Shown piece after piece: positions 3,664 to 35,316 of a stretch of DNA of 35,908 nt (the first letter of the stretch is position 1; every line of letters starts with the position of its first letter). The notes below the pieces were generated by a model. That model was not told the DNA's origin. It saw only the letters and a program-made list of their open reading frames with translations, and made no database searches. The stretch covers positions 1 to 35,908 of the forward strand of contig SHZQ01000005.1 in NCBI GenBank assembly GCA_009695535.1, given 5' to 3'. The translations under genes were made by a program, and so were the position numbers. Source of the DNA: Methyloglobulus sp. (lineage in GTDB: Bacteria; Pseudomonadota; Gammaproteobacteria; Methylococcales; Methylomonadaceae).

Positions 3664-3731
3664 CTTTACGTCGATTTAAAGTTGTTGAGTTTAGAGTTTA
3701 TAGAGCGCTTGAGGCGCGAGGTTGAGTTGAA

Positions 3732-4355
3732 ATGTCAAATATATTTGAATTTGTCGCTGAAAGTCGTGGACAGTCAGGAACCACCGCAGCGCGAGGCGTA
3801 CGGCGTCAAGGTAAAGTGCCAGCAGTAATATACGGCGGTCATGCCGAGCCAAAAATGCTGGTGTTAAGCCATAACGAAGTGGTAAAGCACCTTGAGCATG
3901 AAGCGGTTTATTCGCATGTGTTGGACGTTACCGTTGATGGCAAAACCGAAAAAGCCATTTTAAAAGGCGTACAACGCAATCCTGCTAAATTCCAGATTTT
4001 GCATTTGGATTTTCAACGGGTCAGCATGAAAGAAGCCATTAAAGTGCATGTTCCGTTGCACTTCACCAATGAGAGTACCTCAGTAGGTGGTAAAAAAGGC
4101 GGCATAGCCACGCATTCGATGGTCGATGTCGAAGTAACTTGTTTGCCTTCTGCTTTACCAGAATACCTCGAGGTGGATTTGGCAAAACTGGACATTGGTG
4201 AAACCCTCCATCTGTCCGATATAGTTTTACCAAAAGGTGTCGAAATTGTGATATTGCATCAAGGTGCGGATCACGATTTGCCAGTCGCTTCGATGATGGC
4301 ATCAAAAGCCAGTAAAGAAGACGCTGTTGATGAAGCCGGTAAAGCTGCCGAGTAA
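3732..4355 (+). CDS. rplY: 50S ribosomal protein L25/CTC, two-domain form
   Basis: RGVRRQGKVPAVIYGG N-terminal domain plus CTC-like C-terminal domain; prs-rplY-pth order. Confidence 0.93.
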   Translation: MSNIFEFVAESRGQSGTTAARGVRRQGKVPAVIYGGHAEPKMLVLSHNEVVKHLEHEAVYSHVLDVTVDGKTEKAILKGVQRNPAKFQILHLDFQRVSMKEAIKVHVPLHFTNESTSVGGKKGGIATHSMVDVEVTCLPSALPEYLEVDLAKLDIGETLHLSDIVLPKGVEIVILHQGADHDLPVASMMASKASKEDAVDEAGKAAE

Positions 4356-4370
4356 TAAGATAGCTTACGC

Positions 4371-4937
4371 ATGATAAAGCTTATCGTTGGCTTGGGGAAT
4401 CCAGGTCAACAATACGAAAAAACCCGGCACAATGCCGGGTTTTTGTTTTTAGACAGTTTGGCGGTCGAGTACACTAATGTCTGGTCGAATAAACCTGCAT
4501 TTCAGGGTTTAATGGCTGAATGCACTATTGCTCGTGAAAAGGTTTTGTTACTTAAACCCCAAGCCTTCATGAACCGCAGTGGTCAGTCGGTTGGCAAAGT
4601 GGCGCTATATTACAAAATTACGCCGGAAGAAATCCTCGTTGTTCACGATGAACTGGATTTTGATGCAGGTGTTGTAAGGTTAAAGAAAGATGGCGGTCAC
4701 GCCGGACACAATGGCTTAAGAGACATTATCGCTCATCTAGGCGCAAAAGACTTCTACCGTTTACGTATTGGCATAGGTCGTCCGCCTGCAAGCGTGGTCG
4801 TTGCGGATTACGTATTATCAACACCGTCCAAGAATGATAATCAGCTTGTGTACTCAGCGATAGACTACGGTAAAAGTTTTATAGACCAGATAATTACGGG
4901 CGATATAGCCGCCGTGATGAGCGCGATGAATAGCTGA
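4371..4937 (+). CDS. pth: Peptidyl-tRNA hydrolase
   Basis: IVGLGNPGQQYEKTRHNAGFLFLD, HDELDFDAGVVRLKKDGGHAGHNGLRDI. Confidence 0.97.
   Translation: MIKLIVGLGNPGQQYEKTRHNAGFLFLDSLAVEYTNVWSNKPAFQGLMAECTIAREKVLLLKPQAFMNRSGQSVGKVALYYKITPEEILVVHDELDFDAGVVRLKKDGGHAGHNGLRDIIAHLGAKDFYRLRIGIGRPPASVVVADYVLSTPSKNDNQLVYSAIDYGKSFIDQIITGDIAAVMSAMNS
4418..4450 (+). terminator. Intrinsic-terminator-like hairpin inside the pth CDS
   Basis: AAAAACCCGGCA-CAA-TGCCGGGTTTTT: 12-bp perfect stem, 3-nt loop, then TTTTTGTTTTT. Confidence 0.6.
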
Positions 4938-9024: not shown

Positions 9025-9055
9025 GGTCGGTGGCAATGTTGTCACCGACCTTTTT
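9025..9055 (+). terminator. Intrinsic terminator/attenuator between rplL and rpoB
   Basis: GGTCGGTG-GCAATGTTGT-CACCGACC + TTTTT; rpoB follows in the same direction. Confidence 0.75.
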
Positions 9056-35277: not shown

Positions 35278-35316
35278 AGACATAAAAAAACCGGCAATGC
35301 CGGTTTTTTTATGTCT
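35278..35316. terminator. Bidirectional intrinsic terminator between convergent rplQ and fdxA
   Basis: AGACATAAAAAAACCGGC-AAT-GCCGGTTTTTTTATGTCT: 18-nt perfect arms, 3-nt loop, T-runs on both strands. Confidence 0.9.

Follow-up and report, generated by a model that had tools for sequence, protein, structure and literature searches.

A probable intrinsic terminator, maintained by selection, in the catalytic-site codons of pth

The codons for the catalytic site of peptidyl-tRNA hydrolase (Pth) probably contain an intrinsic (Rho-independent) terminator that is maintained by selection, that would uncouple low Pth from high RplY (ribosomal protein L25), and that a translating ribosome would open. 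The element was found in a 35,908-nucleotide stretch of contig SHZQ01000005.1 from Methyloglobulus sp. (hereafter, the window). Selection has preserved the signal in methane-oxidising bacteria and, less strongly formed, in about a quarter of the gammaproteobacterial families sampled, which makes it a probable throttle on pth, acting after rplY. Gating by the ribosome is somewhat favoured; like termination in vivo, its efficiency and its effect on the level of pth, it is predicted from comparative sequence analysis.

The hairpin and its operon

The element occupies positions 4418–4451 and consists of AAAAACCCGGCA-CAA-TGCCGGGTTTTT-GTTTTTA, in which a perfect 12-bp stem with a 3-nt loop is followed by a T-tract. 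The stem begins 47 nt past the pth ATG (4371), which bears out the palindrome claimed in the initial annotation of this DNA. The hairpin itself (4418–4444) lies inside pth codons 16–27, which encode E-K-T-R-H-N-A-G-F-L-F-L and include the catalytic-site residue His20. All of its parts are on the forward strand. The 5′ arm, AAAAACCCGGCA (4418–4429), runs from the end of codon 16 through Lys17, Thr18 and Arg19 to the start of His20; the CAA loop (4430–4432) spans the end of His20 and the start of Asn21; and the 3′ arm, TGCCGGGTTTTT (4433–4444), runs from the end of Asn21 through Ala22, Gly23 and Phe24 to the start of Leu25. The T-tract, TTTTTGTTTTTA (4440–4451), is written in codons Phe24, Leu25, Phe26 and Leu27 and overlaps the distal stem.

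Intrinsic terminators are recognised by a GC-rich stem, 5 bp or longer and closed by a short loop, and by a U-rich tract directly after the stem. The 12-bp, 3-nt-loop hairpin in pth has a minimum free energy of −18.3 kcal/mol (z = −4.4), which was equalled in none of 200 shuffles, and it is followed by TTTTTGTTTTT, a tract that is often weak outside the host family. Its d score of +52.8 ranks second among the intrinsic terminators in 228 kb of the genome (about 14% of the total), and within that sample it is the only strong terminator that lies in the sense orientation within a coding ORF. A search of Rfam 15 with the element returned no match at the gathering score. The codons CGG and GGG, previously described as minority choices in pth, account for one of eight Arg and two of 17 Gly codons, respectively, in the gene as found in the window.

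The pth ORF (4371–4937, forward strand) matches TIGR00447 with 210 bits (cutoff 100). It follows rplY (3732–4355, forward strand) in the gene order tRNA-Gln, prs, rplY, pth and then a tRNA cluster, and rplY and pth are neighbours in almost every gammaproteobacterial family that was sampled. The 15-nt gap between the two genes (4356–4370) is without a usable Shine–Dalgarno sequence (duplex −1.5 kcal/mol). Across the host family, the median for pth is likewise −1.5 kcal/mol and only one of 90 genes reaches −6 or better. Given this weak Shine–Dalgarno pairing and the short distance from rplY, translation of pth is likely to be coupled to that of rplY. The presence of the hairpin bears no relation to the length of the gap (p = 0.65), which counts against the mechanism proposed below.

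An attenuator requires a terminator that a translating ribosome can reach and mask, and the pth stem, which starts 47 nt into the reading frame, is so placed. The alternative antiterminator structure of trp-type attenuators was not found: no conserved antiterminator or competing structure was detected upstream in 45 host-family sequences. Attenuators of the pyrBI type need no antiterminator structure.

Codon choice and the folding strand

The host family was represented by genomes that include named members of Methyloglobulus, Methylobacter, Crenothrix and Methylomonas, with three named Methyloglobulus in the window's own genus. In a codon-shuffle test, in which synonymous codons were permuted within each gene so that the protein and the codon pool were unchanged, 84 of 90 host-family pth genes scored as terminators, against 2.2 expected. 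A perfect 7-bp Watson–Crick core was present in 68 of 92 genes (0.09 expected from gene-specific codon use). In the first sample of the family, the core was paired in 91 of 92 members, and the d'Aubenton-Carafa score was also positive in 91 of 92 (median +51.8). The alternative offered in the initial annotation, that a conserved peptide happens to permit a palindrome, is rejected by the excess of terminators over shuffled genes in the family.

When all conserved pth codons were ranked by the departure of codon choice from family usage (G), the leading positions were Gly23, Arg19, Thr18, Ala22, Leu25 and Leu27, with G values from 219 down to 115, where the median is 14. Since Leu25 and Leu27 are T-tract codons and both are locked, the T-tract is under selection as well as the stem. 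Only Ser70 ranks alongside these six hairpin and T-tract codons; it is kept in the AGY box across the class, as expected for a conserved residue whose switch to TCN would take two substitutions. Outside the hairpin, Leu4 (CTT) and Val6 (GTT), at 4380–4388 in the window, also show unusual codon bias among family members (G = 95 and 65, respectively).

Changes on one side of the stem are answered on the other. Where Thr18 is replaced by Asn (AAC), the Gly23 codon is GGT instead of GGG in six of six cases, which turns a C-G pair into A-U. Similarly, where Ala22 is replaced by Val (GTC or GTT), Arg19 is often CGA, which turns G-C into A-U, and CGA is mostly found paired with GTC or GTT. In a 46-sequence alignment, 16 cells had changed on both sides of the stem, a number reached in none of 500 shuffles. 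Exchanges left G·U rather than A·C on the pth strand by 34 to 2, indicating that the mRNA strand is the strand that folds; the same asymmetry counts against a symmetric DNA site. The comparison of synonymous sites in orthologues, which had been proposed beforehand, therefore showed retention of the palindrome and T-tract far above expectation, with compensatory changes and on the mRNA strand. Selection for termination at the pth element is very likely on these grounds.

Distribution and turnover across Gammaproteobacteria

In the rest of the order, the hairpin is present in 17 of 20 sequences, with 0.6 expected from codon shuffling. Related sequences are not independent, and samples of one sequence per family therefore weigh most. 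Among 83 gammaproteobacterial families sampled in this way, 25 carry the hairpin (1.2 expected from codon shuffling), and a held-out set of 49 further families, fetched after the first sample, gave 10, compared with 0.8 expected and a maximum of 4 in 40 shuffles. Over both one-per-family samples, the hairpin core is paired in 36 of 132 families. A phylum-wide pattern search returned few matches beyond Gammaproteobacteria, most of them resembling ordinary terminators.

The long T-tract encoded by Phe-Leu-Phe-Leu is mainly typical of the host family. Most carriers outside it have TTY TGG (Phe-Trp) after the stem, which leaves the T-tract interrupted or weak, and so the hairpin might serve another role there. 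One further family of the order (f7) and one of the class (f150) have the hairpin together with Phe-Leu and a long T-tract, and their pth sequences branch separately in the gene tree (branch support was not assessed).

Some host-family members sampled later lack the hairpin. Genus g8 has lost it and kept the adjacency of rplY and pth (loci L316-L318 and L334-L337), a loss in place that marks the hairpin as dispensable. This genus provides a natural contrast for expression studies. In genera g6 and g11, rplY runs into tRNA-Tyr, tRNA-Gly and tuf with no pth there (loci L306-L313, L124 and L326-L333); pth sits elsewhere in the genome, on a distant branch of the pth tree, without the terminator. 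This loss is uninformative on its own because a gene on so distant a branch looks like a replacement. Absence of the hairpin away from the rplY operon was accordingly set aside as uninformative by itself, both in these genera and in E. coli, where pth lacks the hairpin and does not follow rplY. No new terminator was found after rplY in g6 or g11, where pth has moved or been replaced, a point against the main reading.

A scan of 1.5 kb around the pth start in the 83 families showed that sense terminator-like elements cluster at the prs–rplY junction and between −100 and +200 of pth; the bodies of rplY and pth contain almost none. The 49 held-out families repeat this pattern. In several families that lack the TRHNAG hairpin, a terminator unrelated to it lies in the rplY–pth gap or in other early pth codons. 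Such replacements within coding sequence numbered 5 in the first sample and 1 in the second, against 0.5 and 0.1 expected, respectively. The pattern looks like the turnover of one function, which is to stop or reduce transcription as it passes from rplY into pth. The prs–rplY junction (3664–3731 in the window) is a second terminator boundary of the operon, and its elements lie ~700–900 nt upstream of pth in the class samples.

Proposed mechanism, alternatives and precedents

It is proposed that RNA polymerase from the prs–rplY unit proceeds past the pth start and through 16 codons, that the GC hairpin then forms, and that polymerase is released at the U-tract, at about 4445–4452. Most rplY transcripts would thus end in early pth, and this would enable an abundant RplY and a scarce, essential Pth to share an operon. 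A ribosome that has finished rplY and re-initiates at pth could occupy the 5′ arm in time to prevent folding of the hairpin, giving full-length pth mRNA; judging from footprint size, it would have to advance ~13 codons behind polymerase to do so. If the ribosome were late, the hairpin would form and polymerase would be released. The predicted outcome is plentiful mRNA for rplY and little for pth, the amount of readthrough depending on the translation of pth.

Such coupling to translation would fit the anatomy of the site, namely a 12-bp stem 47 nt into the ORF, a very weak Shine–Dalgarno sequence and a 15-nt gap. By analogy, it would also fit established ribosome-suppressed terminators: suppression by ribosomes of terminators inside translated regions is well documented, with pyrL as the model (PMC5021804). 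According to that paper, which cites Roland et al. (1988), the E. coli pyrBI (pyrL) attenuator is an intrinsic terminator in a translated region that is blocked by a ribosome close behind polymerase, as is proposed here for pth. However, the pyrBI terminator is part of an expendable leader peptide upstream of its operon, whereas that of pth lies mid-operon, within codons for the catalytic site of the very gene that it would regulate, an essential one; in addition, no UTP-sensing pause is known for the pth element, unlike pyrBI.

A simpler arrangement, possible if not the one we would expect, is a constitutively leaky terminator that fixes the rplY:pth ratio without sensing translation. Operons with internal terminators that set stoichiometry have been described, for example in PMC9045158, which reports internal, intercistronic terminators in the ABC transporter operons of cellulolytic clostridia. 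Like the pth element, these separate an upstream product made in abundance from a scarce one encoded downstream, but they are described as lying between genes, whereas the pth terminator lies in the codons of the downstream gene. A fixed ratio would also agree with the finding of no conserved antiterminator or sensor upstream in the 45 host-family sequences. However, a site inside a translated region should be open to interference from a nearby ribosome (PMC5021804), and a fixed ratio is in any case a sub-version of the throttle proposed above.

The mRNA hairpin may instead be kept for a role other than termination, such as slowing the ribosome at the catalytic loop, blocking an exonuclease at a processed rplY 3′ end, or binding an RNase or a protein (e.g. 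Pth). This would account for retention of the stem in the many families with TTY TGG and no good T-tract, and for the finding of no new terminator behind rplY where pth has left. It is nevertheless unlikely: the Leu codons of the host-family T-tract are locked as firmly as the stem, versions with a T-tract are seen in two further groups that branch separately in the pth tree, and the replacement elements are terminator-like, some of them in the untranslated gap, where ribosome pausing fails to explain them. More speculative still is a feedback switch, in which the early pth codons would act as both leader peptide and terminator, and, when translation is impaired, ribosomes slowed or piled up by a build-up of peptidyl-tRNA would stay on those codons, mask the hairpin and raise pth transcription. 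If this were true, the peptidyl-tRNA rescue enzyme would have a built-in sensor of translation drop-off.

Two further readings are highly improbable. The residues of TRHNAG do permit a 7-bp stem, but the peptide by itself, already refuted as an explanation in the host family, yields far too few hairpins in the shuffles of the family and of both one-per-family samples, and leaves the compensatory changes across the stem unexplained. A palindromic DNA site, for protein binding or uptake, would match the symmetry of the sequence, but the sequence usually occurs once per genome, in pth, and the excess of G·U over A·C is explicable by one RNA strand only. Lastly, a programmed −1 frameshift at GAAAAAACC with the hairpin was rejected, since the heptamer is in the wrong phase and has no spacer after it, and the A-run varies (AAG, AGA, GCG).

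Premature 3′ ends inside E. coli ORFs, some of them with intrinsic terminator scores, have been reported (PMC7815308) and resemble what is proposed for pth, but that paper does not name pth, and E. coli pth has neither the hairpin nor the position after rplY. There is precedent for intrinsic attenuators, for internal terminators that set stoichiometry and for 3′ ends within ORFs, and what would be new is a terminator in the codons of pth; no published example was found in the literature searched, which covered few subscription papers. The catalytic-site codons of an essential gene would then hold a second, regulatory message, one retained across a bacterial family and, in its hairpin form, in much of a class. 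This would explain how rplY and pth stay in one operon despite very different required levels, and would offer a simple natural system in which to measure transcription–translation coupling. Synonymous recoding of pth may also alter its expression.

Elsewhere in the window, a strong terminator with hairpin and T-tract lies between rplL and rpoB (9025–9050). Terminators of this kind thin transcription into rpoBC, which is needed in lower amount. The pth element resembles it in following a ribosomal protein gene and preceding a gene needed in lower amount, but the rplL–rpoB terminator is intergenic and that of pth is coding. The likeness of the pth hairpin to a terminator near the window end, remarked on in the initial annotation, is genuine (CCGGCAATGCCGG, 35291–35303). 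The shared CCGGC-AAT-GCCGG core is part of a very long palindrome that spans 35278–35316.
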